This document shows, one piece after another, positions 4,245 through 23,965 of a stretch of DNA of 64,000 nucleotides. The number at the start of each line of letters is the position of its first letter. Position 1 is the first letter of the stretch. A model generated the notes under the pieces. It did no database searches and had not been told where the DNA came from. It saw only the letters and a program-made list of their open reading frames with translations. The position numbers and the translations under genes were made by a program. This DNA comes from Oscillospiraceae bacterium (GTDB lineage Bacteria > Bacillota > Clostridia > Oscillospirales > Oscillospiraceae): positions 124,001-188,000 of the forward strand of contig JAFTGD010000042.1 of NCBI GenBank assembly GCA_017458065.1. The letters are read 5' to 3'.

Positions 4245-5198
4245 TTACTTGAAATACTGCTTGTCGTAGTTTGCCTCGATGGCCTTGACCACCTGGGTCA
4301 GGACATCGCAGGTGGGCGTCGGGACCCCGACCTTCTTGCCGTAGTCCGAAATGGCCCCGGTAAGCGCGGTAACCTCGGTCTGCCTGTCGTTGAGCAGCAT
4401 ATCCTGCGCCATGGAAGGATAATAGTTGCTGATTGCGGCAAGTAGATTGTCATAATTGTTGACGGTGAACTCCCACACGCCTTCTATCCCGAGGGCCTCG
4501 GAGACAGCGGCGGCTTCTTTCCAGACCTGCCATACCAGCGCCGAGCCGTTCGGGTCCGCGGCGACCTCGCCGACCTTCATGCGCAGGACCGCGCAGACGG
4601 TATTGAAACCGGCGTTGGACGTTGCCTTTTTCCACACCGCGGGACGGACGTCTTCATAGAAATGCGCGCCGAGTCCGCCCTTGTCGAAGCACTCCTTCAG
4701 ATAGTTGCCGGCCTTTGTGGTCAGCTCGCTCTTCTCCGCAGCGCCGAAGTACATATTGTCGCCGCCGAGGGGCTTTGCCACGCACTTGCCGGGCCCGGCA
4801 AGCTCCGTACCCATGTTGCCGCAGCCGAACAGAATCCGGTCCGCGGGGACAAACTTCTTCACATGTTCATCGTTGCCAAGACCGTTCTGCAGGGTGACGA
4901 CAACCGTCTCGGGGCCGATGCAGGCTTTGGACTTTTCCAGAAGGCCTTCCGTCTGGGTGGCTTTCACCATGATGATGGCGATATCGACAACGCCGATATC
5001 GTCAGCGGTATACGCGGTCTTGAATCCGTCAAGATGATAGGTGCCGGTGGGGTCGGTGAATTCCATTCCCTCTGCGGCCACCTTATCCATGTGGGCCTTA
5101 TAGAGGTCGACGAGCACGATGTCGTCTGCGCCGCCTTTTCTGAGATAGCTGGCAAACACACTGCCGGCGGCTCCGCTTCCAAGCATTGCGATTTTCAT
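4245..5198 (-). CDS. Ketopantoate reductase (PanE/ApbA) family protein
   Basis: A 317-residue protein with an N-terminal Rossmann fold (MKIAMLGSGAAGSVFASYL, then the NADP-loop region VLVDLYKAHMDKVAAEG) and the C-terminal helical domain of the 2-dehydropantoate 2-reductase family. The conserved VWKKATSNAGFNTVCAVL stretch carries the family's catalytic lysine region. Start ATG 5198 is used; the upstream in-frame codons to 5228 have no better ribosome site. The gene lies 89 bases downstream of the YkvI-like permease on the same strand, separated by a strong hairpin. No other pantothenate gene is nearby, so the substrate may be another 2-oxo acid of the permease pathway (inference). Confidence 0.82.
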   Translation of the reverse strand: MKIAMLGSGAAGSVFASYLRKGGADDIVLVDLYKAHMDKVAAEGMEFTDPTGTYHLDGFKTAYTADDIGVVDIAIIMVKATQTEGLLEKSKACIGPETVVVTLQNGLGNDEHVKKFVPADRILFGCGNMGTELAGPGKCVAKPLGGDNMYFGAAEKSELTTKAGNYLKECFDKGGLGAHFYEDVRPAVWKKATSNAGFNTVCAVLRMKVGEVAADPNGSALVWQVWKEAAAVSEALGIEGVWEFTVNNYDNLLAAISNYYPSMAQDMLLNDRQTEVTALTGAISDYGKKVGVPTPTCDVLTQVVKAIEANYDKQYFK

Positions 5199-5230
5199 GA
5201 TAACATATTCCTTTCTGTTTTCATTCATTC

Positions 5231-5287: not shown

Positions 5288-6457
5288 TTATTCATCCACA
5301 CCGGCCATGTCGATGTTATGCTCTTTGAGGTAGGCTTTCTTGATCTTGCGTCCGGCGAGAAACAGGGCAGGCAGGATCAGGATCGGCAGGTTCACGTAGC
5401 CAAGGATGGTATAGCCGGTGGAGACCAGCTTCACAATGCCGAACTTGGAGGCAAACGCGCAGAGGAGCAGCAGAACCGCGACCAGTGCGGCGTCCTTGCC
5501 CGGGGTCTTCTCTTCCGGCTTGCGGTAAAGCTTGGAGAAGCGGGCCAGACCGCCAAAGCAGAAGCCGACCGCCGTGGACAGCACCGCCACGAACACCGTC
5601 ACCACATAGACGACCTTCGCCCAGCCAAAGTTCAGATGAGTCAGAATGCCGTAGAAGGGCAGCGGATTGGTGCCGAGGTCCATGACGTCATAGCCGTCCA
5701 TCGTGGTGGCAGCCAGGAAGAAGAGACTCAGCGCAACCAGCATCAGGCCGTTGCCGCAGATGCCGATGATGGCAGCCTTTTTGGAGGTGGAGCGGTTGGG
5801 CAGCTGCATCGCCACAGAGGAGATGTTCGCGATAACCGTCGCCTGGAACGCGGCGTAAATAACGGCGCTCCACAGGGCCTTCGGGAGGGACAGGGTGATG
5901 CCCGGGGTCTCAGACTGCTTCGCAATGGCTTCGCCGAGGTGGAGCTGGCCGGTGGAAGCGGAGAGGATGATGATCAGCGCCAGAACCGCGATGACCAGGT
6001 ACATCATGTAGGTGGAAGCGACGGAGACGAGCTTGGCGCCGAAGGCACAGAGCAGCGCCGCGCAGATGATCACCAGCGCAACGCCCAGCCAGTAGTTCAG
6101 GCCGAACTGATTCAGCAGCAGCGTGGCAATGGCATTCAGCGATCCGCCGAGCGCCGTCATCATCGTGATGATGAACGAGAGGTCAAAGAGATACTTGACC
6201 CAGTTCACGCCGAACACGCCCTGGATCCAGTCGCCGTAGTTGTAGGTCTTGTAGATGCGGGAGAATTCCATGGAACAGTAGAGGCAGGTGCCGAGCAGGA
6301 TCATCGCGAGGACGCTGCACACCGTACCCCAGACGCCGTATTTGACCCAGTAGGTCATGATCTGCGTACCGGAAGCGACACCCGGGCCGAAGTGGGTGCC
6401 CATCCATACGCAGGCGATGCCGATCGCAATCGACAGGGTGGACTGTTTCTTGTTCAT
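5288..6457 (-). CDS. YkvI-like APC-superfamily membrane transporter
   Basis: A 389-residue polytopic membrane protein with about ten predicted helices. The first carries a short unwound-helix-like motif (HFGPGVASGTQIM), as in LeuT-fold carriers, and the overall pattern resembles the YkvI family of uncharacterised permeases. Start ATG 6457 follows AAGGAAGG; the upstream in-frame extension to 6547 is rejected because it runs through the promoter motif. The 33-bp palindrome at 6528-6560 lies upstream and is shared with the MFS gene and the 2-oxoacid oxidoreductase operon. The substrate is unknown; an amino or organic acid is likely from context. Confidence 0.78.
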   Translation of the reverse strand: MNKKQSTLSIAIGIACVWMGTHFGPGVASGTQIMTYWVKYGVWGTVCSVLAMILLGTCLYCSMEFSRIYKTYNYGDWIQGVFGVNWVKYLFDLSFIITMMTALGGSLNAIATLLLNQFGLNYWLGVALVIICAALLCAFGAKLVSVASTYMMYLVIAVLALIIILSASTGQLHLGEAIAKQSETPGITLSLPKALWSAVIYAAFQATVIANISSVAMQLPNRSTSKKAAIIGICGNGLMLVALSLFFLAATTMDGYDVMDLGTNPLPFYGILTHLNFGWAKVVYVVTVFVAVLSTAVGFCFGGLARFSKLYRKPEEKTPGKDAALVAVLLLLCAFASKFGIVKLVSTGYTILGYVNLPILILPALFLAGRKIKKAYLKEHNIDMAGVDE

Positions 6458-6527
6458 GATAGAACCGCCTTCCTTTTTACAGTTTTTGGTTTGCCTGATT
6501 CTTAGAATAAAGGAAGACCGCCGATTT

Positions 6528-6560
6528 GTGAAATGCAAAAAATGCATTACAGTTATTCAC
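6528..6560 (-). promoter_or_regulatory. Shared 33-bp palindromic operator, copy 1
   Basis: GTGAAATGC ... TTATTCAC frames an AT-rich core containing GCAAAAAA. On the minus strand it ends in TTTCAC, which could act as a -35 with TTATTC at -10. The downstream GGCGGT-TTCC-TTATTCTAA stretch is shared with copy 2. It lies about 70 bases upstream of the YkvI-like gene start. Confidence 0.65.
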
Positions 6561-6618
6561 TTTTTAACAAAATGTTAACTTTTTCACTGTCTTTTTTGTG
6601 ACATATGCACTAAATCAT

Positions 6619-6656
6619 CGCCGGAGCGGTCTCTGCGAAAGAGGCCGCTCCGGCGG
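6619..6656 (-). terminator. Terminator-like hairpin after the MFS gene
   Basis: A long stem (GCCGGAGCGG-TCTCT / AGAGG-CCGCTCCGGC) lies just beyond the stop codon of the leftward MFS gene. The T-run is weak. Confidence 0.5.
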
Positions 6657-6689
6657 ATTTCATCGTGCAATATGGATTTGTCTGACGCT

Positions 6690-7886
6690 TCAGCTCGCCT
6701 TCCGCAGGCTGAGATTCAGCAGCAGGGCGATGAGGCTGAGCCCCAGCAGCAGCATAAACGCTGCGGAATAACCGTCGGTCGCGCTGTTGACAAGGCTGGC
6801 CCCCGTCGCGATAAACGACGCAAAAAGCAGGTTGCAGTTCATGACGGCAAAATTCATCGGGAAGTACCGGACGCCGAAGACCTCGGAGGTGAAGGCAGAG
6901 GTAATGGTCGGGCAGGTTCCGTAGGAGAGCCCGGTCAGGCAGAGTCCCACGACGCCGAGAACGGCGGAATGCAGCAGGATGGCGCAGAGCGTGATGGCCG
7001 CGGCCGCAATGGCCATGAGGTTTGCCGCGATCATGGTGGTCTTCCTCCCTAAGCGGTCAAACACTGCGCCGGTGATCACCCGCCCCAGTCCGTTGCAGAC
7101 CGACAGGATCCCGACCAGGGCCGTCGCCGCGCCGGCCGCCAGGCCGACCGAGAGGGCCAGATCTTTTGCCATGGAGATCACCGTGTTCCCCACAGCCGCG
7201 AGGAACACCACCAGCAGAAAGGCTTTCCAGAAGACCGCGCTCTTCAGCATCTGGGCTGTTGTCAGATCACGGCTGTCCCCGTCGGCCTCCGCCTTCTGTA
7301 CGGGGGCTTTTTCCGGCGCTTTCCGCAGGAACAGCGCCGCCAGCAGCAATACGGCGCCGAGCGCGCCTCCGATTGCCCGGAAAGCCATGCGCCAGCCGAC
7401 CGAAGGGTTCCCGATCATGGCGTCCGCCGCGCTCCCGATCACCAGTGCCGAAGCGCCGAAGCCCATCATCAGTACGCCGGAGCACAGGCCCTTCTTGTCC
7501 GGGAACCAGGCGTTCACGGTGGAGATGATGCAATTGTACGCAATGCCGATCCCAAAGCCGGCCAGCACGCCGTAACCCAGGTACAGAACCGTGATGCTGC
7601 TCATGCCGGAAGCGAGGAAGAAGCCCGCCGCCGCAAGGACCGCGCCAAGGAGCAGCGCGCCGCGCAGGCCGATCCGCTTGTTCAGGAAACCGCCCAGCAT
7701 CCCGCCCAGACAGAAGCAGCACATCGTCAGCGTAAAGTTAAGACTCAAAGCCGAAGCGGTCCAGCCGAACTCCGCCGCCAGCGGCGCCTTCAGGATGGAC
7801 CAGGCGTAGATCACGCCCGCTACCAGCAGCGCCAACGTCCCAAGGACCAGATAAAACCGGCGGATAAGGGGATTGTTTTCTCTCAT
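6690..7886 (-). CDS. MFS transporter, oxalate/formate antiporter (OFA) type
   Basis: A 398-residue major facilitator protein with 12 predicted helices. It begins RRFYLVLGTLALLVAGVIYAWSIL and then EFGWTASALSLNFTL, the pattern of the OFA subfamily that exchanges mono- and dicarboxylates. The signature GFLNKRIGLRGALL follows helix 2, and GRVITGAVFDRLGRKTTM lies between helices 8 and 9. Start ATG 7886 follows AAGGAACTG. The second copy of the 33-bp palindrome is 75 bases upstream, so it is probably coregulated with the YkvI-like permease and the 2-oxoacid oxidoreductase operon. The substrate is probably a short organic acid (inference). Confidence 0.85.
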   Translation of the reverse strand: MRENNPLIRRFYLVLGTLALLVAGVIYAWSILKAPLAAEFGWTASALSLNFTLTMCCFCLGGMLGGFLNKRIGLRGALLLGAVLAAAGFFLASGMSSITVLYLGYGVLAGFGIGIAYNCIISTVNAWFPDKKGLCSGVLMMGFGASALVIGSAADAMIGNPSVGWRMAFRAIGGALGAVLLLAALFLRKAPEKAPVQKAEADGDSRDLTTAQMLKSAVFWKAFLLVVFLAAVGNTVISMAKDLALSVGLAAGAATALVGILSVCNGLGRVITGAVFDRLGRKTTMIAANLMAIAAAAITLCAILLHSAVLGVVGLCLTGLSYGTCPTITSAFTSEVFGVRYFPMNFAVMNCNLLFASFIATGASLVNSATDGYSAAFMLLLGLSLIALLLNLSLRKAS

Positions 7887-7961
7887 AACAGTTCCTTAGA
7901 TAATTGGTTTCGTTGTGATTCATTTCACGTTTCCTTTAGAATAACGGAAACCGCCGTTTTT

Positions 7962-7994
7962 GTGAAATGCAAAAAGTGTATCACTCTGATTCAC
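7962..7994 (-). promoter_or_regulatory. Shared 33-bp palindromic operator, copy 2
   Basis: GTGAAATGCAAAAAG ... CTGATTCAC, with the same flank as copy 1 (GGCGGT-TTCC-TTATTCTAA on the minus strand). It is positioned about 75 bases upstream of the MFS start, where a LysR-type activator would bind against RNA polymerase. Confidence 0.65.
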
Positions 7995-8008
7995 TATTTT
8001 TGAATTGG

Positions 8009-8037
8009 TTGAAAGAAAAATAAAATCATGTTAAAAT
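8009..8037 (+). promoter_or_regulatory. Predicted promoter of the two-component operon
   Basis: TTGAAA (8009-8014), a 17-base spacer and TAAAAT (8032-8037), about 55 bases before the response regulator start. Confidence 0.5.
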
Positions 8038-8091
8038 CATGCTGTATTCTTTCGTGCCAATCATTTTATTTCTAAGGCAGGAAACACGAAC

Positions 8092-8808
8092 ATGCTGAAT
8101 ATGCTCATCTGCGACGACGAAAAGGAAATACTGGAGCAGTACCGCAGCTATCTGGAGCAGTTTCAGCAGGAAAACGGAATTGGCATTCAGGCAGAATTTG
8201 CGTCGTCCGTTCTCTGGGTCGATAAGGCAGATTACAGCCGATACCAGATCTTCCTGCTGGATATTGAAATCGGGGCGGACAGCGGAATCCAGTTGGCCCG
8301 CCGAATTCGGGAAAAGAATGAAAAGGGCATTATTATCTTCAGCACGAATTTCTTGGAATACGCTCTGGAAGGGTATGAAGTCCGTGCGTTTCGTTATCTG
8401 AAAAAGCCTTTTGATTATCGTTATTTTGCTTCTGTTCTGCTGGATGCGACCGAAGAGGCGAAGAAACTGGAACCGGCTTTTCTGACGCTTCGCTGCGGCT
8501 ACGAGATCGAACGGCTGTGCCTTGACGATATTCTCTGCTGTGAGACGGAACGGGACCACCTGAAAATCACAATGAAAGACGGGTCTTGCCATTTTGCAAA
8601 TATCGGAATTGATGAGATGGAAAAGAACGTCGCCGGCCATGATTTCTGCCGTTGTCACCGTGCTTATCTGATCAATTGCTTTTATATACAGAACCAGACG
8701 AAGCTTGAGATCCGCATGACAAACGGAATGATGATCCCCATCAGCAAATATCGTAAAAAAGAAGTGATGACACAGTTGATGAAGTACTGGGGGAATCGCT
8801 TTTTATGA
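8092..8808 (+). CDS. LytTR-family response regulator
   Basis: A 238-residue AgrA/LytR-type regulator. The N-terminal receiver has the acidic pair at residues 8-9 (CDDE), the phosphoacceptor Asp57 (FLLDIEIGADSG) and the conserved Lys in RYLKKPF. The C-terminal LytTR DNA-binding domain spans about residues 135-235 (CHRAYLINCFYI, PISKYRKKEV). It overlaps the downstream histidine kinase by four bases (ATGA), so the pair is translationally coupled. The adjacent secreted flavin reductase at 10235 is the likely target (inference). Confidence 0.93.
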   Translation: MLNMLICDDEKEILEQYRSYLEQFQQENGIGIQAEFASSVLWVDKADYSRYQIFLLDIEIGADSGIQLARRIREKNEKGIIIFSTNFLEYALEGYEVRAFRYLKKPFDYRYFASVLLDATEEAKKLEPAFLTLRCGYEIERLCLDDILCCETERDHLKITMKDGSCHFANIGIDEMEKNVAGHDFCRCHRAYLINCFYIQNQTKLEIRMTNGMMIPISKYRKKEVMTQLMKYWGNRFL

Positions 8809-10136
8809 GTTCTTATCTGATCAGGGACGGGATCGACCTGGCCGTTAAGCTCTGGTCCTTCTTTTATGCTGCCAATATGCCGCGGCGAAAAAACGGTTTC
8901 ATCCTTCAACTTGCATCCATTATTCTGTTTTCCGTGTTTGTGATGGGGCAGCGTTACCTGTTGACATCTCATGCTCTTTCTGTTGCTTTCCTTCGCAACC
9001 TGCTTCTGTATCTTCTCACTTTAGGGGTGCAGTTCTCCCTTTTTGACGAGAAGCCCGGATACTCTCTCTTTATTGGCAGCGTGCTGTTTTTCCTGTGGGG
9101 CGGATGGCTGAAGCTGTTCAGCCCCTATGTGTTTATCACGCTCGGGATTCCTACTTTGGGTTACGGGATGCATGAAACCTTCCCTATTCTATGGACCGGA
9201 ATTGCAGAAGCGGTTTGCCGCGTTGCTGCAATTGTTATCATGAAAAGGAACTTTTTCCGTGCTGATTCGGTCCACAATATCTCCATCCAGGAAACCGTAC
9301 TTGCCCTTCTTCCGGCCTTGATCGATCATACCACGATCCTGATTGTCTTTTATATTACGGTCGTGGCGCCGTCCGATACGCTGGACGGAATCGCCGGAGC
9401 CATGACCTTGTTGATCTTTCTTCTGGTATTCGGGATGCCCTGCATGCTAGCTGCGTCAGAAAAAATCTTCCAGCTGAAAGCGGAACAGCTTCGCCTGACA
9501 GAAATGGAAAATCAACTGAACAGCCAACTCCAGACCTTTGAGCGCACCCGACAGACCGAGCAGCAGATACGGAGCATGAATCATGACTTCAACAAACATC
9601 TGGCTGTTCTGCGGCAGCTGCTCCGCGCAGGTGATTCGGATACGCAGCATTATTTGGATGAATTGTATGAACACAGCCGGGATATTCTTCCTCGTATCCA
9701 TACCGGGAATGATATTCTGGACGCTCTGCTGAATCAGAAGCTGGATCTCTGTGAAGCCGCCGGAATCCGCTTCGACTGCATGGTCGATTTCAAACGGGTG
9801 GGGTTTATCTCCCCCGCGGATCTCATTACGATTTTTTCAAATGCCATTGACAATGCCATGGAAGCCGTATCGAATGAAAAAACCGAGCGGTGGATACAAC
9901 TCGGCGGCGGCATTGTCGGCGGAAATGTCATGATCAAAATGACAAATCCTTATTCCGGATCTCTTAAGCTCCGAAACGGCGTGCTCCTGAGCAGCAAAGC
10001 GGATGCAGAAAACCACGGAATCGGCCTGGCGAACATCCGGAGAATCGTAGAAAAATACAATGGGATCGTTTCAATTGATACGGAAAACCAACGCTTCCTC
10101 CTGCAATGCATGATTCCATTCGACGGCGCAAAATGA
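8805..10136 (+). CDS. Sensor histidine kinase, GHKL type (HPK10-like)
   Basis: A 443-residue membrane sensor kinase. About six N-terminal membrane segments form the sensor, followed by a short coiled coil (about residues 225-250), the phosphoacceptor block RSMNHDFNKHL with His260, and a HATPase_c domain (N-box SNAIDNAMEAV, G-box HGIGLANIRRIV). This is the layout of AgrC-like kinases paired with LytTR regulators. No peptide gene of the AgrD type is visible nearby, so the signal may be a small molecule. Its stop codon lies inside the terminator stem at 10125-10158. Confidence 0.92.
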   Translation: MSSYLIRDGIDLAVKLWSFFYAANMPRRKNGFILQLASIILFSVFVMGQRYLLTSHALSVAFLRNLLLYLLTLGVQFSLFDEKPGYSLFIGSVLFFLWGGWLKLFSPYVFITLGIPTLGYGMHETFPILWTGIAEAVCRVAAIVIMKRNFFRADSVHNISIQETVLALLPALIDHTTILIVFYITVVAPSDTLDGIAGAMTLLIFLLVFGMPCMLAASEKIFQLKAEQLRLTEMENQLNSQLQTFERTRQTEQQIRSMNHDFNKHLAVLRQLLRAGDSDTQHYLDELYEHSRDILPRIHTGNDILDALLNQKLDLCEAAGIRFDCMVDFKRVGFISPADLITIFSNAIDNAMEAVSNEKTERWIQLGGGIVGGNVMIKMTNPYSGSLKLRNGVLLSSKADAENHGIGLANIRRIVEKYNGIVSIDTENQRFLLQCMIPFDGAK

Positions 10137-10168
10137 CCATTCGAGGCATTTTTGCGCCGTTTTCTTTT
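10125..10168 (+). terminator. Terminator overlapping the kinase stop codon
   Basis: GGCGCAAAA (10125-10133) pairs with TTTTGCGCC (10150-10158), then GTTTTCTTTT. The left arm includes the last codons of the kinase gene, which separates this operon from the reductase gene. Confidence 0.75.
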
Positions 10169-10234
10169 CCCTGTGATATCATGCCGGTATGGCGCTGTCT
10201 GCCATGTCAAATTATATTGAGAAGGGAGCAACTC

Positions 10235-12133
10235 ATGAAAAAGAAACTGTTCAGCATTCTTCTGGTCCTGGCTATGTGCTTAAGCCTGACCACCGTAGCG
10301 TTTGCAGACGTTAGCTACGGCACCTACACCGGCACTGCAATGGGCCGCAATGGTGAAGTCGTCGTCGAAACCTCCTTTTTAAACGGAGAGATCGTATCGG
10401 TTACCATCGTTAGCCAAAGTGAAACCGCAGGTGTTGCAGATCCTGCCCTTGAGACTCTCCCCATTGAAATCGTGGAGAACCAGTCGATCGGTCTGGATGC
10501 GGTCACCGGCGCGACCTTTACCAGCACCGCCATTCTTGAGGCTGTCGCATCCTGCATCAAGCAGGCCGGCGGCGATCTGGAAGAGTGGTCCAAAAAGATC
10601 GTGAAAGAAGCCGGCGAGGACATTGAGCTGACCGCGGACGTCGTCGTGATCGGCGCAGGCGGCGCAGGTATGTCAGCAGCCGCAGTTGCAGGCGCTTCCG
10701 GCGCTTCCGTCATTTTGATCGACAAAGCAGCCGCTGTCGGCGGCAATACCATTTTGTGCGGCGGTTCTTACAACGCTGCAGATCCTGAGGTTCAGAAAAA
10801 CGAGCCCATCAGTGAGGCCCAGCGCAAAGAACTGGCTTCTTACCTGGAGATGGATGAGGCCGATTTCGGCGATTTCGGGCCGACCCTCGCTATTTTAAAA
10901 GAACAGGTTGCGGAATATCTCGATTCCGGAGCGGATTATCTCTTTGACAGCATCGAGCTTCATATGATTCAGAGCTATACCGGATCAAAGCGCACCGGAC
11001 TTGACGGTACAGTCATTGTCCCTGATTTTGAATTGATCTCCAGCCTGTGCCATAACGCTCTGGACGGCTGGCATTGGCTCCAGAGCATCGGCGTGCCTAC
11101 AAGAGAAGATCTGACCACCGCAGTCGGAGCGCTTTGGAAGCGTACCCACCAGGTTGAAGTTCCCCCCACCGGAGCAAAGCCTCTGACTGACGCGCTGAGA
11201 GATTATGTGCTCTCCCAGGGTGTCGAGATCATGCTGAACACCAAAGCAAAGGAATTCATCGTGGAAGACGGTGTTGTTACCGGCGTTCTTGCGGAGAAGA
11301 ATGACGGCACCAAAGTGATCCTCCATTCCAACCACGGTGTCGTTCTTGCAACCGGCGGCTATGCCGGAAACGTCCAGATGTGCGTAGAGTACAACAATTA
11401 CTGGCCTGATCTGACGACCTCGGCCCGTACTGACAACTCATCGAACGCACAGGGCGACGGCATTAAAATGGCCGAGGCAATCGGCGCAAACACCATCGGT
11501 CTCGGCTTTGTACAGATGCTCCCCACCTGCACGGCATTGGACGGACAGGCCGGCAAAGGCGTTGGAAGCAAGATCTATGTCAACAAAGAGGGTCTCCGCT
11601 ACATCAGCGAAAACAGTGAACGCGACGTCCTTTCAAAAGCTGCGCTGGCACAGACGGATGGCGTCTTCTATGGCGTCGGCGACGCCGAGATGATCGCGAC
11701 ACAGGGTGAGACAAAGATCAACGAGTCCGAAGCAATGGGCTACATCTTCATCGGAGATACCCTGGAAGAAGTTGCCGAAAAGGCAGGCGTTGATGCCGAG
11801 GCTCTGATTGAGACCGTGAAGAAATACAACGAATACGTAGACGCTCAGGAAGATCCGGAGTTCGGACGCTATGCATTCAGCAACAAAATCGAGACTGCGC
11901 CCTTTGTCATCGCTCCGATGTCACCGGCACTCCATCATACGATGGGTGGCGTTCAGATCAACACCGATACTCAGGTGATTGATACGAACGGGAATCCGAT
12001 CCCCGGCCTCTATGCTGCCGGAGAAGTCTGCGGAGGTATCCATGCAGGCAACCGCCTCGGCGGAAACGCAGTTGCGGATGCCATTGTTCACGGCCGTGTT
12101 GCCGGAGCAAACGCCCTGGCCTTCGAAAGATAA
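10235..12133 (+). CDS. Secreted FAD/FMN-dependent reductase (fumarate/urocanate reductase-like)
   Basis: A 632-residue protein. The signal peptide MKKKLFSILLVLAMCLSLTTVAFA is followed by one FMN-binding domain whose flavinylation motif DAVTGATFTS lies near residues 88-97. The FAD domain (VVVIGAGGAGMSA) and capping domain follow. Residues typical of the flavocytochrome-c catalytic site are present: the Arg of SERDVLSKA (general acid), HHTMGGV, and GNRLGGNAVADAIVHG. Family members reduce extracellular organic acceptors such as fumarate, urocanate or acrylates for anaerobic respiration. No electron-donor partner is adjacent. Start ATG 10235 has GGGAG upstream; the extension to 10106 covers the terminator and is rejected. 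The substrate is unassigned. Confidence 0.9.
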   Translation: MKKKLFSILLVLAMCLSLTTVAFADVSYGTYTGTAMGRNGEVVVETSFLNGEIVSVTIVSQSETAGVADPALETLPIEIVENQSIGLDAVTGATFTSTAILEAVASCIKQAGGDLEEWSKKIVKEAGEDIELTADVVVIGAGGAGMSAAAVAGASGASVILIDKAAAVGGNTILCGGSYNAADPEVQKNEPISEAQRKELASYLEMDEADFGDFGPTLAILKEQVAEYLDSGADYLFDSIELHMIQSYTGSKRTGLDGTVIVPDFELISSLCHNALDGWHWLQSIGVPTREDLTTAVGALWKRTHQVEVPPTGAKPLTDALRDYVLSQGVEIMLNTKAKEFIVEDGVVTGVLAEKNDGTKVILHSNHGVVLATGGYAGNVQMCVEYNNYWPDLTTSARTDNSSNAQGDGIKMAEAIGANTIGLGFVQMLPTCTALDGQAGKGVGSKIYVNKEGLRYISENSERDVLSKAALAQTDGVFYGVGDAEMIATQGETKINESEAMGYIFIGDTLEEVAEKAGVDAEALIETVKKYNEYVDAQEDPEFGRYAFSNKIETAPFVIAPMSPALHHTMGGVQINTDTQVIDTNGNPIPGLYAAGEVCGGIHAGNRLGGNAVADAIVHGRVAGANALAFER

Positions 12134-12143
12134 TCATATCCCG

Positions 12144-12182
12144 AAAAAAGCGCCTCATGCGTTCTGCATGGGCGCTTTTTTC
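12144..12182. terminator. Bidirectional terminator
   Basis: AAAAAAGCGCC, a 16-base loop, then GGCGCTTTTTT, between the convergent reductase and CoA-transferase genes. A-rich and T-rich flanks suit both directions. Confidence 0.85.
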
Positions 12183-12193
12183 TTCTTATCTCT

Positions 12194-13528
12194 TTATCTC
12201 TTGTTGCTCTGGCGCCAGATCTTCTGCTCTTCGGCGGCCTTGATGAGCTCTTCGCGGAAGTCCGGATGCGCGATGCCGATCAGCGCCTCGGCCCGCTGCC
12301 AGGTGGTCCGGCCGGGCAGAGAGGCGATGCCGTATTCGGTGACGATGTTCGGCGCCTGGGTGCGCGGGGTGGTGATGATGTCGCCCGCGGTGAAGTGCGG
12401 GATGATGTTGGAGTGGAGATTGCCGGCCTTGTCGGTGAAGGTGGAGTGCATGGCAAGGAAGGCTCTGCCGTGCTCCGCCTCCATGGCGCCGGTGATAAAG
12501 TCCACCTGGCCGCCGGTGCCGCTGATCTGCCGCAGCCCGGCAGACTCTGAGCTCACCTGACCGAAGAGGTCCACCGCGATGCAGCCGTTGATGGAGACAA
12601 AGTCGTCCAGCTCCCGGATCACCTGAGGGTTGTTTACGTAGCGCATCGGCGCGGAGAGGATCGCGTCGTTGTGGTCGAGGAAGTCATAGAGCGCGCGGGA
12701 CCCATTGCAGATGGAAAAGATCCCCTTGCCGCGGTTGAGCTTTTTCTTCTGGTTGGTAATCTTCCCGGAGAGATAGAGATCCAGGTAGCCGTCGCTCATG
12801 AGCTCGGTGTGCATGCCCAGATCCTTCACGTCCGACTCGGCGATCATGCTGCCGATGGAGTTGGGGATCCCGCCGATGCCGAGCTGGATGGTACAGCCGC
12901 TGGTGACATAGGGGAAGATGAAAGACGCGATCTTGCGGTCGGTATCCGTCGCCGCGGGGCTCTTGACCGTCGGGATGGGAAGATCGCTCTCCACCACATA
13001 GGTCACATCCTGGATGTTGATGTGGTCGTTTTCCACGCCGGCAATGGTGGGCATGGTGGGGTTGACCTCCACGATGACGTGCTCCGCCACATCCAGGATC
13101 TCCTGCATGGCGCAGTTGGTCAGGCCGTAGGAAAAGTTGCCGTTGCTGTCCATGGGGGCAACGGTGATCATCGCGACGTTCACAGGGGCGTAACCCTTCC
13201 GGTAATAGGTCCCGTTGTGCCGGAACAGCATCGGCGTGTGGTAGGCCCGGCCCTGGTCGATGTACTTGCGGTCCAGACCGGAGCAGTGCCACAGGTTATA
13301 GGTAAAGGAGTGGCCGGGGTCGTTTTCCACGGTCTGTACCGGCTGCATGGTGATGGCGTTGCGGATCTTGACGTCGTGCAGTTCGCCGCTGCGCTTTGCC
13401 AGCGCCGCGTCCAGCAGCTGCGGGAAGGAGCAGGTCTGGCTGTAGTCCACCCAGTCTCCGTCCTTGATAAGCTGAACCGCTTCTTCCGCGCAGCGGAGCT
13501 TTTCGGCATAGAGTGCCTTATAATCCAT
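12194..13528 (-). CDS. Acyl-CoA:acetate CoA-transferase (butyryl-CoA:acetate type)
   Basis: A 444-residue member of the acetyl-CoA hydrolase/transferase family, the same length as butyryl-CoA:acetate and 4-hydroxybutyrate CoA-transferases. The catalytic Glu242 lies in [10 protein letters not shown], with the family motifs GIGGIPN and [13 protein letters not shown]. It would move CoA from an acyl-CoA to acetate, releasing the acid and acetyl-CoA. It is the last gene of the 2-oxoacid oxidoreductase operon, 93 bases after the gamma subunit, with a hairpin between. From context its natural acyl-CoA is the product of that oxidoreductase rather than necessarily butyryl-CoA (inference). Confidence 0.88.
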
Positions 13529-13566
13529 AGATCTCTTCCCTTTCTGTTGTTATTGTCGTTCATAAG

Positions 13567-13602
13567 GATAACGCCTGGCACGATCCCGTGTCAAGCGTTA
13601 TC
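13567..13602 (-). other. Intercistronic hairpin in the oxidoreductase operon
   Basis: GATAACGC and GCGTTATC enclose an inner TGGCACG/CGTGTCA stem between the gamma subunit and CoA-transferase genes. It could tune expression of the last gene. It has no T-run, so it is not a clear terminator. Confidence 0.45.
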
Positions 13603-13621
13603 TGTTTCCGTCGGTTTCGGA

Positions 13622-14173
13622 TCAGGCTGCTTTCACCTTTTTCCCCGCGTCGAGGCCCATGGCGAAGGCCTTTTTGTTGAGCTCGATAAACTCGGGCTTC
13701 TTGCCCAGCAGGCGCAGGATGCAGTCGAGCACCAGGTTCTCGTCGATGAGCCCGGTGTACCCGATATACGCGCCCAGCATCACAATGTTCAGCACCTTCA
13801 GGCTGCCGAGCTCCATGGCCATCTCGGTCACCGGGATGGGAACCACGGCCACATCGTCCCGCTCCGCGCCGCTCTTGACGAGGGAGCTGTTGGTGAAGAT
13901 GATGCCGCCGGACTGTACATTTGTGCGGAACTTGACCATCGAGACATCGTTCATCACGATCAGCTGGTCGACAATGTTCGGCTTGGGGGAGCCGACCTCG
14001 CGGTCAGAGATGACGACGTAGCAGTTGGCTGTGCCGCCGCGCTGCTGTGCGCCGTAGGAGGGGTAGAAGGTCACGTTGTAGTCGGTCGAGTCACATGTCG
14101 CCTGGCTCAGGAGCTTGCCGATCATCATGACGCCCTGGCCGCCGAAGCCGGCCACCATCAGATTGAGTTCCAT
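13622..14173 (-). CDS. 2-oxoacid:ferredoxin oxidoreductase, gamma subunit
   Basis: A 183-residue subunit starting MELNLMVAGFGGQGVMMIGKLL, the hallmark of the KorC/VorC/PorC gamma chain, with YPSYGAQQRGGTANC and SPKPNIVDQLIVMND. It helps form the CoA site of the complex. It follows the beta subunit by 12 bases. Separate alpha, beta, gamma and delta genes match the four-subunit 2-oxoglutarate or branched-chain/aryl 2-oxoacid enzymes. The exact substrate is not determined. Confidence 0.92.
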   Translation of the reverse strand: MELNLMVAGFGGQGVMMIGKLLSQATCDSTDYNVTFYPSYGAQQRGGTANCYVVISDREVGSPKPNIVDQLIVMNDVSMVKFRTNVQSGGIIFTNSSLVKSGAERDDVAVVPIPVTEMAMELGSLKVLNIVMLGAYIGYTGLIDENLVLDCILRLLGKKPEFIELNKKAFAMGLDAGKKVKAA

Positions 14174-14185
14174 CGTCTTTCCTCC

Positions 14186-14923
14186 TTATCCGTTGTCCCG
14201 GATGACGCCGAGCGGGAATTCCTTCATCATGTTCTCTTCCAGGAACTTCAGGCTCTTCTCCGGGCTCAGGCCCCAGTTGGTCGGGCAGCTGGTCATCACT
14301 TCGACAAAGGAGTAGCCCTTGCCGTCTATCTGGTTCTGGAACGCCTTGCGGATGGCGTTCTTGGCCTTGCGCACATTGGCGGGGTTGTTGCAGGAGACTC
14401 GCTCGATATACACGGGGGCGACCAGCTGGTTGATGATCTCCGCCATGTGCAGGGGATAGCCGTGCTGCTTCGGGTCGCGGCCGCCGGGAGCGGTGGTGGC
14501 CTTCATGCCCACCAGGGTGGTGGGGGCCATCTGGCCGCCGGTCATGCCGTAGATGCCGTTGTTGATGAAGATGACGCTGATGTTCTCGCCGCGGTTGGCC
14601 GCATGGATGGTCTCGGCCAGACCGATGGAGGCGAGGTCGCCGTCACCCTGATAGGTAAAGACGACGGTATCGGGATTCGAGCGCTTTAGGCCGGTGGCGG
14701 CAGCGGCGGCGCGGCCGTGAGGCGCGGTCGCCAGGTCATAGCTCACGGCGTCCTGGGCCAGACCGCAGCAGCCGATGGCCAGAATGCAGGAGGCCTTATT
14801 GTCGATGCCGAGCTCTTCCAGGACCTCACCGATGAGCTTGAAGGTGGTCCCGTGCATGCAGCCGGGGCAGAAGCCCAGCAGATTGCCGTTTAAAGTTTTG
14901 GTTCTTGTGTAGACAGCTTCCAT
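14186..14923 (-). CDS. 2-oxoacid:ferredoxin oxidoreductase, beta (TPP) subunit
   Basis: A 245-residue thiamine-pyrophosphate subunit. It has CPGCMHGT near the N-terminus, the TPP motif GDGDLASIGLAETIHAANRG ending in INNGIYGMTGGQ, and THP-type GRDPKQHGYPLHMAEI. It carries out decarboxylation of the 2-oxoacid and transfers electrons through the cluster to ferredoxin. Its start codon shares one base with the alpha-subunit stop (TAATG), which shows tight translational coupling. Confidence 0.93.
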   Translation of the reverse strand: MEAVYTRTKTLNGNLLGFCPGCMHGTTFKLIGEVLEELGIDNKASCILAIGCCGLAQDAVSYDLATAPHGRAAAAATGLKRSNPDTVVFTYQGDGDLASIGLAETIHAANRGENISVIFINNGIYGMTGGQMAPTTLVGMKATTAPGGRDPKQHGYPLHMAEIINQLVAPVYIERVSCNNPANVRKAKNAIRKAFQNQIDGKGYSFVEVMTSCPTNWGLSPEKSLKFLEENMMKEFPLGVIRDNG

Positions 14924-16014
14924 TAGTTGGCACCTCCCGTCAGAATTTCACGCGCTTTGCCGAGAATGTTGTCACGTTCAATGAGATTGCCGCCGCTGCG
15001 CAGGCAGGTATCCACCGGGCAGCGTCCTTTCACCGCCATCCTTACGTCGTACACCATCTGGGCGGGAATGCTCATCTCGATGTCCAGAACGCACTTGCAG
15101 GTGTCGTAGTTGATATGATCAAAAGCCTTGCTCGGGAAAGGATAGAGCGTCTTCGGACGGATCATGCCGACCTTGTGTCCTTCGGCGCGCAGCATCTCCA
15201 GGGCGTTCTTCGCGATGCGGGCGGAGGTACCGTAGGCTACAAACACCATCTCGGCATCCTCCAGGAAGAGCTCTTCCACCTGCACGTCGTTCTGCTCCCA
15301 GCGCTCATACATCGCTTCCAGGTTCCGGCAGTGCTGTTCCTGCATGTCGTTGGACCAGTAGCCGGGCTGGATATAGCCGCGCTTCTCATCTCTGCCGTGG
15401 CCGACGATGGCCCACTCGCGGTTCTTCGCCTTCAGGGCGGCAACCTCTTCATCGCTCTTCATCTCGGGGAGAACCACCGGCTCCATGATGGTGCCGATGA
15501 CGCCGTCGCCGAGGATCAGGACGGGGCTGCGGTCGCGCTCGGCCAGGTCAAAGGCCTGGTAGGTCATGTCGACCGCTTCCTGCACGGTAGACGGGGCCAG
15601 GACGATCATCCGGAAGCCGCCGTTGCCGCTGGCCTTGGTGGCCTGGAAGTAGTCCTGCTGGGCCGCCTGGATGGTGCCGACGCCGGGGCCGCCGCGCTGC
15701 ATGTTAACATACACCATGGGGACCTTGGCGCCCGCGCAGTAGGAAATACCTTCGCTCTTGAGGCTGATGCCGACGCTGGAGGAGGAGGTCATGGACCGGG
15801 TGCCGCCGGCGCCCGCGCCGTAGACCATGTTGATGGAGGCAACTTCGCTCTCACCCTGGACGAAAGCGCCGCCCACCTGGGGCAGTCTGCGGGCCATGTA
15901 CTCGGGGATCTCGTTCTGCGGGGTGATGGGGTAGCCGGCATAGAAGCGGCAGCCCGCTCTGACGGCTGCTTCGGCAATGGCCTCGCAGCCCTTCATAAAT
16001 ACTTTATTGCTCAT
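14923..16014 (-). CDS. 2-oxoacid:ferredoxin oxidoreductase, alpha subunit
   Basis: A 363-residue alpha subunit with GYPITPQNEIPEYMARRLPQ near residues 23-42, the pyrimidine-binding fold with SVGISLKSEG, and the C-terminal KTLYPFPSKAF region. ATG 16014 (MSNKVFMKG) has GGAGGG upstream; the longer reading frame to 16113 would overlap the ferredoxin gene and is rejected. With beta, gamma and the small ferredoxin it oxidatively decarboxylates a 2-oxoacid to acyl-CoA, CO2 and reduced ferredoxin. Confidence 0.93.
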   Translation of the reverse strand: MSNKVFMKGCEAIAEAAVRAGCRFYAGYPITPQNEIPEYMARRLPQVGGAFVQGESEVASINMVYGAGAGGTRSMTSSSSVGISLKSEGISYCAGAKVPMVYVNMQRGGPGVGTIQAAQQDYFQATKASGNGGFRMIVLAPSTVQEAVDMTYQAFDLAERDRSPVLILGDGVIGTIMEPVVLPEMKSDEEVAALKAKNREWAIVGHGRDEKRGYIQPGYWSNDMQEQHCRNLEAMYERWEQNDVQVEELFLEDAEMVFVAYGTSARIAKNALEMLRAEGHKVGMIRPKTLYPFPSKAFDHINYDTCKCVLDIEMSIPAQMVYDVRMAVKGRCPVDTCLRSGGNLIERDNILGKAREILTGGAN

Positions 16015-16024
16015 GGGGCCCTCC

Positions 16025-16228
16025 TTACTTGTAGAGCTCGATGGCCCCTTCGGGACACATGGAGCAGCAGATGGCGCAGCCGATGCACTTCTCCGGCTCG
16101 GTCTGCATGACATAGGGATAACCGTTGGCGTTGATCTCCTCCCCGACCTTCAGGATCTTCTTGGGACAGAACAACACGCAGTAGCCGCAGGATTTGCAGT
16201 AGTCAGGATTGATGACAAGTTTTGGCAT
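16025..16228 (-). CDS. Two-[4Fe-4S] ferredoxin subunit (delta) of the oxidoreductase
   Basis: A 67-residue ferredoxin with two full cluster motifs, CKSCGYCVLFCP and CIGCAICCSMCP. It starts at ATG 16228 (MPKLVINPDYCK) with AGGAGA upstream; longer in-frame starts run into the P-loop gene. It serves as the delta subunit, carrying electrons from the TPP site to soluble ferredoxin. It lies between the P-loop NTPase gene and the alpha subunit in one operon. Confidence 0.92.
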   Translation of the reverse strand: MPKLVINPDYCKSCGYCVLFCPKKILKVGEEINANGYPYVMQTEPEKCIGCAICCSMCPEGAIELYK

Positions 16229-16247
16229 TTTCTTTCTCCTCTCGTGT

Positions 16248-16928
16248 TTATACTTGCCAGGGATGGGGCAGATAACGGTGCAGGGGATAAGTTTCAAAAG
16301 GAACCGTATGCCCGAAGTCCGCATACAGCGCCTCGGTCACAAAACAGGCGGAGATCTCCTCCGCGCCGATCAGCTCTTCCAGCCGCCGGAGGCCTTCGCG
16401 CAGGTCCTCGGCGCCGGTTTCGGGGCCGACGGTGGGGTTTGCAAGGAAGAAGATGTTCTCCAGATGGCAGGCGTTCAGGACGCTCTGCATCGTATCGCGC
16501 ACGTCCTGCAGGCTTCCGGACCAGGGCCGGTAGGGATTCACCACATAAATCGCCGCCGCGTTCTCCCGGTTCAGATAGTCCGAGAGGCACCCGACCATCC
16601 GCGCCGCATTCTCGTTGCCGCCCACGTCCAGGAGGCTGACGCTCTCCTTCCGGACCAGATGGGGGATGATGCCGTTGACCATGACGGGGGTGTCCAGCAG
16701 CTGCGGCATGTAATGGATGGTGATGCCGCGGGTCTTCATCGCTTCCTCCGCATCCCGGGCGCGGAACATGGCCTTGGTCTGGTCCAGGTCAAAGACGTGC
16801 ACATTCCGGTCGGTCTGTCCCCGCAGCAGCACCGCGGTGTTGAGGGCAATCTCGCTCTTGCCGCTTCCGGTCTCGCCGATGAAGATGAAGTTCTTTTTTG
16901 TTTTCAGCAGTTCTGAGAACCGTTCCAT
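16248..16928 (-). CDS. P-loop NTPase of unknown function, first gene of the oxidoreductase operon
   Basis: A 226-residue protein with a Walker A GETGSGKS at residues 18-25 and a Walker-B-like SLLDVGGNENAARM. The stretch HVFDLDQTKAMFRARD suggests a SIMIBI/CobQ-ParA-like fold. No domain beyond the NTPase is evident. It is the promoter-proximal gene, 19 bases before the ferredoxin, so it is made together with the complex. It could serve as an assembly or cluster-loading factor or a regulator, but that is speculation. It is not needed for known 2-oxoacid oxidoreductases. Confidence 0.75.
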   Translation of the reverse strand: MERFSELLKTKKNFIFIGETGSGKSEIALNTAVLLRGQTDRNVHVFDLDQTKAMFRARDAEEAMKTRGITIHYMPQLLDTPVMVNGIIPHLVRKESVSLLDVGGNENAARMVGCLSDYLNRENAAAIYVVNPYRPWSGSLQDVRDTMQSVLNACHLENIFFLANPTVGPETGAEDLREGLRRLEELIGAEEISACFVTEALYADFGHTVPFETYPLHRYLPHPWQV

Positions 16929-17014
16929 GGCAGGCTCTCCTCCGATAATGATAATTTATTTTAGCACGGAAGCTGTCCCTCTGTGAAATGCAAAAACCGT
17001 ATCACTGCGATTCA
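16929..17014. repeat. 86-bp direct repeat, copy A (operon promoter copy)
   Basis: About 90% identical (9 mismatches counted by eye) to 18788-18873. It includes the ribosome site and promoter region of the P-loop NTPase gene and most of the 33-bp operator. The two copies flank the AAA ATPase segment. The rest of the 311-base gap (17015-17239) holds only the inverted repeat at 17137-17177. Confidence 0.85.
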
Positions 17015-17015
17015 G
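16983..17015 (-). promoter_or_regulatory. Shared 33-bp palindromic operator, copy 3
   Basis: GTGAAATGCAAAAACC ... GCGATTCAG, 54 bases upstream of the first gene of the 2-oxoacid oxidoreductase operon. The final base differs from the other copies (G for C). Confidence 0.65.
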
Positions 17016-17136
17016 AGTTTAAAGCACAGCCGGGTTTTGTTTGCCGACATCATTGATCAGGTCGCTCGTAAACCCCGTCCTCAGACTTTCCTTAAAACAG
17101 CGCAAAGTCCATGCCTAATGACAACTAATAAATAAA

Positions 17137-17177
17137 TTTCCTCATTATCACGATAAAAAAGCGAGATAATGAGGAAA
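17137..17177 (+). promoter_or_regulatory. Inverted repeat upstream of the AAA ATPase gene
   Basis: A perfect 13-bp stem (TTTCCTCATTATC at 17137-17149, complement at 17165-17177) about 63 bases before the ATPase start. It could be an operator or the terminus of an inserted segment. No T-run follows. Confidence 0.55.
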
Positions 17178-17239
17178 AATGGTTGATATTTGTCATTAAA
17201 TATGATATCCTTTACTTCAGCGAAAGGGGCGTGATCCGG

Positions 17240-18682
17240 ATGAGCAAAACAGAGGTAATTGGTCGAACCGAGGAATGGCAGGAACTGGACAGGTGCATGG
17301 AACGCAGGCAGGCGCAGCTTATTACAGTATACGGGCGGCGCAGGGTTGGAAAGACTTTTTTGGTCAACGAATACTTCGACAAACAATTTGATTTTAAACT
17401 GACGGGAGAGTATAAAGCTCCGACAGAAAACCAGCTGGAAAACTTTGTGCTGGAGCTGAACAGACAGGCAAAAACAGAATATGCAGTACCGGAAAGCTGG
17501 AGAGCCGCTTTTTCTCTTTTCAGGGGATATCTGTCTTCGTTGCCAGAGGAGGAGAAGCACATTGTGTTTTTTGACGAAATGCCCTGGCTGGATACACCCC
17601 GCTCAGGATTTCTTTCTGCTTTTGAATATTTCTGGAATGATTTTGGCTGTGCATGTGACAATTTGGTCTTCGTTGTCTGCGGGTCTTCAACTTCCTGGAT
17701 GGCTGAGAATATAGAGCATAATAAAGGGGGTTTATTCAATCGCCTGACCAGCAAAATTGTACTGCCGCCCTTTACCCTGCGGGAAACAGAGCAATACCTG
17801 CAGGCCATCGGGATAGAATGGGCGCGGTATGATATTACTCAACTTTATATGATTACGGGCGGAATTCCTTATTACCTTAGCTTTCTTAATCCGTCACTTT
17901 CTCTGAGTGAAAATATTGATCGTCTTTTTTTCCGGAAGGGCGCCGAATTGCGGGATGAATTTGATCATTTGTACCGTACGCTTTTCAAAAACAGCGAGCA
18001 GTATATCAGAATCGTAGAGGAACTCAGCCGAAAAAAAGGCGGAATGGGAAAGGCTCAGCTGGCTGCGAAGGCTGGGCTTCCTCTGAATGGCGATTTCACG
18101 AAAAAGCTAACCAATCTGGTAGATGCCGGTTTTGTCAGAGCATCCGTTTTTTACAATCAGAAAAAACGAGATATTCAGTATCAACTCTCCGACTACTACA
18201 CGCAGTTTTATTTTCGTTTTATAAAAAATCATTACGGGCAGGATGAACACTTTTGGACAAATACGGTTGACCTTCCCTCGCGCCGTGTATGGGCGGGGCT
18301 GACATTTGAACAGCTTTGCCGGGATCACAGTGCTCAGATCAGGCAAAAGCTCGGCATCTCCGGTGTCCTCTCCGAGGAATCCGTTTGGTTTTCCCGCAGC
18401 AGTAAAGATGATTCATCCCGTGGCGCCCAGATTGATCTTGTAATTGACCGACGAGATTACACGACGACCTTGTGTGAGATGAAATATTCTGTCAACATCT
18501 TTGAGATAGACAAAGAATATGATATGATCCTCCGAAATAAATTGGAAGCCTTTCGAAGAGAAACAGGTACAAAAAAGTCGCTACAGCTTGCTATGATCAC
18601 AACCTTTGGCGTTAAAAAGAACAAATACAGCAACATCGTCAGCAAACAGATTGTGTTGGACGATTTGTTTACTGCAGGATAA
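17240..18682 (+). CDS. AAA ATPase with C-terminal DUF234/PD-(D/E)XK-like domain
   Basis: A 480-residue protein of the MSN/DUF234 ATPase group. Walker A is GRRRVGKT (residues 32-39), Walker B HIVFFDEMPWLD and sensor FVVCGSSTSWM. A winged-helix segment (about 270-320) is followed by a C-terminal nuclease-like core with AQIDLVIDR and LCEMKYS, matching D-E-x-K. ATG 17240 is used; the longer frame to 17183 lacks a ribosome site. It is the only rightward gene in a leftward region, is visibly more AT-rich than its neighbours, and is flanked by an 86-bp repeat, all pointing to insertion. Such genes are common accessory genes whose role is unsettled. Confidence 0.85.
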   Translation: MSKTEVIGRTEEWQELDRCMERRQAQLITVYGRRRVGKTFLVNEYFDKQFDFKLTGEYKAPTENQLENFVLELNRQAKTEYAVPESWRAAFSLFRGYLSSLPEEEKHIVFFDEMPWLDTPRSGFLSAFEYFWNDFGCACDNLVFVVCGSSTSWMAENIEHNKGGLFNRLTSKIVLPPFTLRETEQYLQAIGIEWARYDITQLYMITGGIPYYLSFLNPSLSLSENIDRLFFRKGAELRDEFDHLYRTLFKNSEQYIRIVEELSRKKGGMGKAQLAAKAGLPLNGDFTKKLTNLVDAGFVRASVFYNQKKRDIQYQLSDYYTQFYFRFIKNHYGQDEHFWTNTVDLPSRRVWAGLTFEQLCRDHSAQIRQKLGISGVLSEESVWFSRSSKDDSSRGAQIDLVIDRRDYTTTLCEMKYSVNIFEIDKEYDMILRNKLEAFRRETGTKKSLQLAMITTFGVKKNKYSNIVSKQIVLDDLFTAG

Positions 18683-18787
18683 GCAATCGAGGACAGGCGG
18701 TGTCGTCTTTGCTCAGTTCATAAGAAGTCCGTTTTCCCTGGATACGAATCGGTCGCGACAGCGGCTGGATAAGAAATGCTCTCACTT

Positions 18788-18873
18788 GGCAGACCTTCCT
18801 CTGATATTGATGATTTGTTTTAGCACGGAAGTTGTTCCTCTGTGAAATGCAAAAACCGTATCACTGCGATTCA
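18788..18873. repeat. 86-bp direct repeat, copy B
   Basis: A partner of 16929-17014. It ends exactly in the stop codon of the LysR gene and carries a decayed copy of the operon ribosome site and promoter that now points into the 3' end of the ATPase gene. Confidence 0.85.
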
Positions 18874-18874
18874 C
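18842..18874 (-). promoter_or_regulatory. Shared 33-bp palindromic operator, copy 4 (orphan)
   Basis: GTGAAATGCAAAAACC ... GCGATTCAC overlaps the LysR stop codon. No leftward gene lies directly downstream, so it is probably left over from the insertion of the ATPase segment. Confidence 0.6.
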
Positions 18875-19749
18875 TGAACACCGGGCCGCAATTCCTCCGT
18901 CAGCGTATCGATCAGCAGCTCGACCGTCGGCAGTTTTGTGTTCTTCTTCCTGGCGAGGGCAACGCTGATGGTGTCGCCCATGTCCATCGCCCGGATCCCG
19001 GGCGCGTGCAGGTTGCCGTACCATCCGTCCAGCACGGCAACGCCCAGCCCGTTCTCAACACAGGCGAATACCGTGTCCAGGTTCCTCACGGTGACAAAGC
19101 GCGGCACAAAATGATACGGCTGGAAAACCGTCTCCGTCTCGTGGACAATCTGCTGGACGCGCGAGTCGTCCACCAGGAAAAAATAATAGGGGAAAAAGTC
19201 CTCCGGGCTGAGCAGTGTCTCATACCCCTCCAGCCGCTCGGAGTAGACGATATACCGCCGGACCGACGTGATCCGTTCGATCTCCAGATCCGGCTCCTGA
19301 TTCAGATAGTTCTCCATCGAGAGCACCGCGTCCAGGCGCTTCTCATTCAGGCCCTGGATCAGATCCCGAAAGTCCAGGCACTCCAGATGAATCCGAAAGT
19401 CCGGCAGCAGCTGCCGGCAGCGCTGAACCACGTCCGGGAGAAATGCGGACAGGTTCCATCCTGTGTTATATCCCAGATGAAGACTGGGAGAGCCGCCTGA
19501 GAGCAGATTCCGCGTGTGTTCGAACTCTTTGGCAAAGTGCTGGAAAAGGTTGTAGTACTCTTTCCCCGCCTCCGAGAGCAAGATCCTGCGGCTGCTTTCC
19601 CTGACAAACAGCTTCGCCCCCAGCTCCTCCTCCAGACTGGAGATATACCGGCTCACAGCCGGCTGGGGCAGCATCAGGTTCTCCGCCGCCTTGGTAAAGT
19701 TCAGCAGCTTTCCCGCCTCCAGAAAGCACTCGATCTGTCTGGAATTCAT
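18871..19749 (-). CDS. LysR-family transcriptional regulator
   Basis: A 292-residue LysR protein. The N-terminal winged helix-turn-helix is MNSRQIECFLEAGKLLNFTKAAENLMLPQPAVSRYISSLEEELGAKLF, followed by the linker helix and a substrate-binding domain (about residues 90-290). It lies upstream of the 2-oxoacid oxidoreductase operon on the same strand, now separated from it by the ATPase segment. I propose it recognises the 33-bp palindrome found at the oxidoreductase, YkvI-like and MFS genes. The inducer is unknown. Confidence 0.92.
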   Translation of the reverse strand: MNSRQIECFLEAGKLLNFTKAAENLMLPQPAVSRYISSLEEELGAKLFVRESSRRILLSEAGKEYYNLFQHFAKEFEHTRNLLSGGSPSLHLGYNTGWNLSAFLPDVVQRCRQLLPDFRIHLECLDFRDLIQGLNEKRLDAVLSMENYLNQEPDLEIERITSVRRYIVYSERLEGYETLLSPEDFFPYYFFLVDDSRVQQIVHETETVFQPYHFVPRFVTVRNLDTVFACVENGLGVAVLDGWYGNLHAPGIRAMDMGDTISVALARKKNTKLPTVELLIDTLTEELRPGVQ

Positions 19750-22432: not shown

Positions 22433-22458
22433 AAACCGGAGATACGGAGGAGAAAAAC

Positions 22459-23307: not shown

Positions 23308-23334
23308 CGCGATGCCGGCCGAAAGGAGAACATC

Positions 23335-23878: not shown

Positions 23879-23965
23879 GCGCCGCTTTCGCTTGATTTTT
23901 CATCGAAAACGGCTTATGATAAGGACACTTTATTTCTGTTCATACCGCTTTCGGGGGTGAATGCT

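Follow-up and report, generated by a model that had tools for sequence, protein, structure and literature searches.

In a 64,000-nucleotide stretch of DNA from an Oscillospiraceae bacterium (GenBank assembly GCA_017458065.1, contig JAFTGD010000042.1, positions 124,001 to 188,000; hereafter the window), one short element is found in four places, three of them upstream of genes for transporters and for a 2-oxoacid:ferredoxin oxidoreductase. The locus raises the question of what kind of site this element is and which protein reads it. An earlier note on the window had described a 33-bp palindrome and named as its regulator the LysR-type gene that adjoins the fourth copy (18871–19749, minus strand; LysR 18871). 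Our comparison of genomes indicates that the element is an ordinary kind of LysR-type switch site, clearly delimited. The best-supported candidate for the LysR protein that accompanies it is a second one, LysR2, at approximately 23957–24853; the assignment to LysR 18871 was probably wrong. Very probably, LysR2 uses the element as its operator and activation site and would activate a YkvI-like permease together with a ketopantoate reductase-like gene (KPR), a transporter of the MFS family, and the oxidoreductase/CoA-transferase operon. The 2-oxoacid regulon thereby gains a sharply defined operator and a better-supported regulator.

Copies of the element and their confinement to the locus

Exact copies of the 14-mer GTGAAATGCAAAAA were found at 6528, 7962, 16983 and 18842, in every case on the plus strand. 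When up to two mismatches were allowed, the window contained five matches, against 0.43 expected. The whole assembly (3,595,469 bases, 83 contigs) held exact copies only at these four positions, together with five additional matches of one mismatch each, at which the best matrix site reached at most 1.8 bits. A degenerate 32-bp pattern matched without mismatch solely at the four window copies; its four other matches in the genome had three mismatches each, and the reversed control pattern gave three matches. The element is thus not scattered at random, a check that the earlier note had named, and a random genome-wide repeat was rejected since exact copies occur only at the four window places. 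Copies 1, 2 and 4 of the window were also combined with three sites of G015, a genome of the same genus, into a six-site matrix. With it, the window copies scored 46.4–52.4 bits, partly by construction, and the next site in the window 9.1 bits; in ten 64-kb sequences from a third-order Markov model, the best site reached 5.7 bits.

Copy 1 (6528–6560), copy 2 (7962–7994) and copy 3 (16983–17015), all on the minus strand, stand upstream of the permease gene, the MFS gene and the operon for the ATP-binding protein, the oxidoreductase and the CoA-transferase, respectively. They lie 70, 75 and 54 nt from the start codons, with a constant orientation relative to the gene, which agrees with the 54–75 bases given before. 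The four places of the earlier description were recovered, with the 14-mer exact at each. The 33-bp palindrome was rejected: dyad symmetry was confined to the outer bases, with 48% pairing on average around the centre at position 17, and the best centre was position 10 with 70%, so that an internal dyad is stronger. The sequence GATTCAC, reported for all four copies, was present in two of them; in its place, copy 1 has TATTCAC and copy 3, differing in the last base, GATTCAG.

Copy 4 (18842–18874, minus strand) holds the stop codon of LysR 18871, as expected from the reported contact with the end of a LysR gene. It is an orphan duplicate. Copies 3 and 4 lie inside an 87-nt direct repeat (16928–17014 on the operon side, 18787–18873 on the LysR 18871 side; 90% identical) and hence are not independent. 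In copy 4, the duplicated gene has lost its start codon and the -10-like hexamer is altered by one base; three copies were therefore counted as promoters. The two repeats frame a gene with the Pfam domain ATPase_2 (17240–18682, plus strand), of which two paralogs, 39–40% identical, occurred elsewhere in the genome. No homolog of it was found in five fetched LysR2 loci beyond the genus or in a set of 12 loci.

LysR2 and the element in related genomes

LysR2 (23957–24853, plus strand; start codon uncertain, GTG at 23957 or TTG at 23966) carries an HTH_1 domain (69.6 bits, cut-off 26.6) and a LysR_substrate domain (109.6 bits, cut-off 28). Among 102 genomes of the genus, the element (up to three mismatches) occurred in two, the window's own and G015, whereas its reversed control matched none of them. 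An ortholog of LysR2 (query 23912–24853 of the window, E 1e-60) was present in the same two of the 102. The G015 protein was 78% identical and divergent from the oxidoreductase operon, with the element between them; two other elements preceded YkvI-KPR-MFS and a hydrolase plus flavin reductase. When the matrix was built solely from the four copies of the window, these three sites scored 44.3–48.3 bits and the next site in the locus 4.9 bits. By the same matrix, the best sites in the fetched loci of relatives with the oxidoreductase genes and no LysR2 ortholog (G022, G075, G083, G024 and G106) reached 5.7–15.5 bits, versus 44–48 in G015. A search of genome contigs for LysR2 homologs returned, besides G015, two LysR proteins of 28–29% identity, whose loci were without a strong site.

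The hydrolase of G015 is of the alpha/beta-hydrolase type, and the FMN/FAD reductase that comes after it bears a twin-arginine translocation (TAT) signal (L043 5929–7734 and 3802–5889); this pair is perhaps an extracellular electron-acceptor step of the regulon. A small ferredoxin-like gene was located between the alpha and P-loop genes of G015.

Beyond the genus, samples of 394 genomes from the order and 400 from the family were drawn, with G015 in neither. The order sample held at least two LysR2 homologs besides the window's (E 1e-55), and the family sample at least seven with the window's included (E 1e-50). In G556, from another genus, LysR2 was 60% identical and divergent from one run of genes, on one strand, for the ATP-binding protein, the alpha, beta and gamma subunits, the CoA-transferase, YkvI, MFS and KPR. 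A site of 30.0 bits lay between LysR2 and this operon, the next in 20 kb scoring 2.4 bits; G556 was outside the matrix. The single run under one element comprises homologs of the genes that stand under three elements in the window; the MFS gene, at 41% identity, may not be orthologous. This gives good support to the previously proposed LysR-type regulon, in which two transporters are combined with a 2-oxoacid oxidoreductase and a CoA-transferase.

Five further genomes (G240, G186, G836, G784 and G717) carried a LysR2 homolog of 41–43% identity, divergent from genes for chalcone isomerase (chi) or flavone reductase (flr). The oxidoreductase operon was approximately 2 kb away in G240, G186 and G836. 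LysR2 was therefore divergent from its target, with the site between, in G015, G556 and these five genomes, and not in the window. Such an arrangement resembles the classical LysR type, in which, according to PMC4834489, the regulator is divergent from its target, a primary site lies at approximately -65 and a second site reaches into the -35 region. Unlike that type, the window has a flavonoid-type module between LysR2 and the target, and its regulon is divided among three promoters.

At all six loci outside the genus (fetched lengths of 12–20 kb), the best matrix site fell within the divergent intergenic region. None of 500 column-permuted matrices reached six loci and one reached five, and the reversed matrix came first in one of the six; at single loci, rank 1 was obtained in 4–17% of the column permutations. 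A 32-base family pattern, derived from the same sites, was searched in the 400 family genomes. It was exact in six of the seven that bear LysR2 (G000, G556, G784, G240, G186 and G836; one mismatch in G717) and in none of the remaining 393. With up to one mismatch, it was found in 23 of the 400 genomes, all seven LysR2-bearing ones included. A tree built from 16 LysR proteins placed the LysR2 homologs, of which three belong to the 2-oxoacid type and five to the flr/chi type, in one group (support 81/82).

Promoter geometry and proposed mechanism

The architecture was read from an alignment of 12 non-relic promoters: three from the window, three from G015, one from G556 and five of the flr/chi type. 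The last five sites were picked from matrix hits. For G240 and G186 we used an overlapping reading on the opposite strand with a lower score (-1.0 and 3.6 bits versus 11.5 and 9.5), chosen after the sequence had been seen, on the grounds that it points to chi and has a -10. Three half-sites, 11 bp apart each, were apparent: GNAT at positions 3–6 (12/12), ATNC at 14–17 (11/12) and GNAT at 25–28 (12/12). The bases T15-N11-A27 were present in all 12 sites and the full box ATNC-N7-GNAT in 11. A known LysR box, that of CatM and BenM, is ATAC-N7-GTAT with T-N11-A (PMC6628147). The likeness to that system includes the T-N11-A box, several sites near the promoter and catabolic targets. Here, unlike in CatM/BenM as far as described there, two boxes overlap, with centres at approximately -54 and -43 from the assumed start, and the targets look fermentative.

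A -10-like hexamer followed the element at 18 bp in 11 of the 12 promoters and at 19 bp in copy 3. In the window, it reads TATTCT for copy 1 (6504–6509) and copy 2 (7938–7943) and TAAAAT for copy 3 (16958–16963), all on the minus strand. The hexamers matched TATAAT in three to four bases at spacer 18 (11 promoters) and in five at spacer 19 (copy 3); the mean number of matches was 3.75 for spacer 18, compared with 3.0 for spacer 16 and 2.67 for spacer 21. The near-constant distance from element to hexamer and the constant orientation were seen across four genera. A sigma-54 promoter, judged by eye, was set aside because of the -10-like hexamer at near-constant spacing. When the hexamer is set at -12 to -7, the element would cover approximately -63 to -31 (start sites assumed). 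Sites of LysR activators that extend into the -35 region are known (PMC4834489).

From these patterns we infer that the protein binds and that it activates instead of repressing; the start sites, an inducer and a substrate are likewise inferred. LysR2 would bind the half-sites GNAT, ATNC and GNAT, one helical turn apart, at approximately -63 to -31; the proximal part of the site would substitute for a -35 box, and the protein would aid RNA polymerase at three promoters. The first precedes the YkvI-like permease (5288–6457; the name is that of the earlier note, and no match was obtained in Pfam or NCBIfam; its homolog in G015 is 75% identical and that in G556 85%) and, downstream of it, the KPR gene (PanE/ApbA-like, 4245–5201; ApbA and ApbA_C above cut-off). 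The second precedes the MFS transporter (6690–7886; MFS_1 above cut-off), for which the NCBIfam models of lactate and oxalate/formate carriers came nearest, with scores under their cut-offs. The third operon begins with a P-loop ATP-binding protein (16248–16928; CbiA just below cut-off), which accompanies the operon in relatives. It continues with the oxidoreductase subunits alpha (14923–16020), beta (14186–14923; TPP_enzyme_C) and gamma (13622–14173; POR domain) and an acyl-CoA:acetate CoA-transferase-like protein (12194–13528; AcetylCoA_hydro and AcetylCoA_hyd_C; TIGR03948 below cut-off). All of these genes are on the minus strand. The alpha subunit passed the cut-off of the VorB subfamily model (NF005507, 463.7 bits, cut-off 399), with the substrate predicted only as a 2-oxoacid. 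The transporters may import or exchange a carboxylate, the oxidoreductase would turn a 2-oxoacid into acyl-CoA and reduced ferredoxin, and the CoA-transferase would recycle CoA by transfer; with a KPR-like enzyme in the set, part of the 2-oxoacid may be reduced.

Several observations weigh against LysR2 as the activator at these sites. The two genomes of the genus may share the cluster by descent, so that their co-occurrence counts as approximately one event. In the window, LysR2 is approximately 7 kb off the operon and divergent from no target, and its own promoter there carries no element. The order and family samples were scored with at most five candidates per genome, and absences in them are not absolute. 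The five loci of the flr/chi type represent two genera, with four of them in one genus, and are not independent; their site precedes chi or flr, and a pattern search of G240, G186 and G836, where the oxidoreductase operon is nearby, found no second site. The clade that unites both groups of LysR2 is only moderately supported. The ATNC half-site fails in G717, which reads ATCG. Spacer 21 outscores spacer 18 in G556 (four matches versus three), and another spacing ties with 18 in copies 1 and 2, G015a, G784 and G717. Finally, 16 of the 393 family genomes in which LysR2 was not found hold a one-mismatch match to the family pattern (L081, L083 and L088–L101), with the reversed control matching in one of 400; one of the 16 has four of six TATAAT matches at spacer 18 and the others have fewer, and some of these matches may be sites of other regulators.

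Other candidate regulators and the flavonoid-type module

It is unlikely that a different regulator binds the element, such as an unlinked LysR protein or the LytTR response regulator whose gene, at 8092, diverges from that of the MFS transporter. Copy 2 does lie between the MFS and LytTR genes, and G015 has many LysR candidates (18 on first look). However, the loci fetched from G015 and G556 showed no LytTR or kinase homolog (these genomes were not searched whole), the half-site spacing and the T-N11-A box are LysR-like, and the site stands beside LysR2 homologs in seven other genomes. The region beside copy 2 (8092–12133) encodes, as named by eye, the LytTR-like response regulator and a histidine kinase, then an FMN/FAD fumarate-reductase-like protein.

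We consider it very unlikely that LysR 18871 binds the element. It is a LysR-type protein and adjacent to copy 4, which contains its stop codon. Its distribution does not follow that of the element, and on this ground it was rejected: orthologs were present in four of the 102 genus genomes (the window's, G024, G062 and G035), the element was absent from G024, G035 and G062, and G015, with its three strong elements, had no ortholog at E 1e-60. The four orthologs stood apart from the LysR2 group in the LysR tree (100/100), for which the program warned of long branches. LysR 18871 accompanies the LVIVD/flr-chi module in relatives; its ortholog adjoins the LVIVD gene in G024, G035 and G062, and flr as well in G024 and G035. 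Least credible of all is a small mobile or structural repeat in place of an operator: copies 3 and 4 do belong to the 87-nt duplication around the ATPase gene, but the genome holds no additional exact copies, and the orientation is constant and the hexamer distance near-constant in four genera.

The flavonoid-type module at 19823–23805 encodes an LVIVD protein, an FLR-like flavone reductase, a chalcone isomerase homolog and a small membrane protein. The reductase (21437–22432) matched PDB entry 7d38 (E 4e-77) and the isomerase (22459–23307) the bacterial chalcone isomerase 4d06 (E 1e-87); 7D38–7D3B are the FLR structures of PMC7862272. A chalcone isomerase domain was present in three of the 102 genus genomes. 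The genes thus resemble the flr/chi genes of Flavonifractor plautii (PMC7862272), and LysR2 homologs are divergent from such genes in five loci. Unlike loci of that type, the flr-chi promoter of the window carries no element among the best window sites, and the LysR2 sites are at 2-oxoacid genes. A phloroglucinol cluster is reported to include an unnamed transcriptional regulator (PMC10470551). Our literature search for a regulator of flr/chi or for this gene set, which did not exhaust the print record, found none of this kind. The LysR2 sites would predict a regulator and promoter for the flr-chi flavonoid genes of related genera, for which that search found no described regulator.

It is conceivable, if rather speculative, that the LysR2 clade is one sensor family with switched targets in related gut bacteria, flr-chi in one branch and 2-oxoacid fermentation in the other, with the same promoter geometry. 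Such a sensor may respond to a metabolite shared by both and so connect the breakdown of polyphenols with the fermentation of 2-oxoacids; in the window, the two modules would have come to lie side by side, and the regulator would have been cut off from its original divergent position.

In G015, the order runs from the operon through the element to LysR2. In the window, the operon is followed by copy 3, the ATPase gene, copy 4, LysR 18871, the LVIVD gene, flr, chi and the membrane gene before LysR2 is reached. It seems that a flavonoid-type module, together with a LysR gene of its own, was inserted between the element and LysR2. Such an insertion would account for the contact of LysR 18871 with copy 4; a possible alternative is that the module was lost in G015. 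The LVIVD, chi, flr and membrane genes of the window were 85–92% identical to those of G024, where the LysR 18871 ortholog (59%) stands beside them. The region directly upstream of LysR2 in the window resembled that of G015, with 8 of 1000 shuffles reaching the alignment score.

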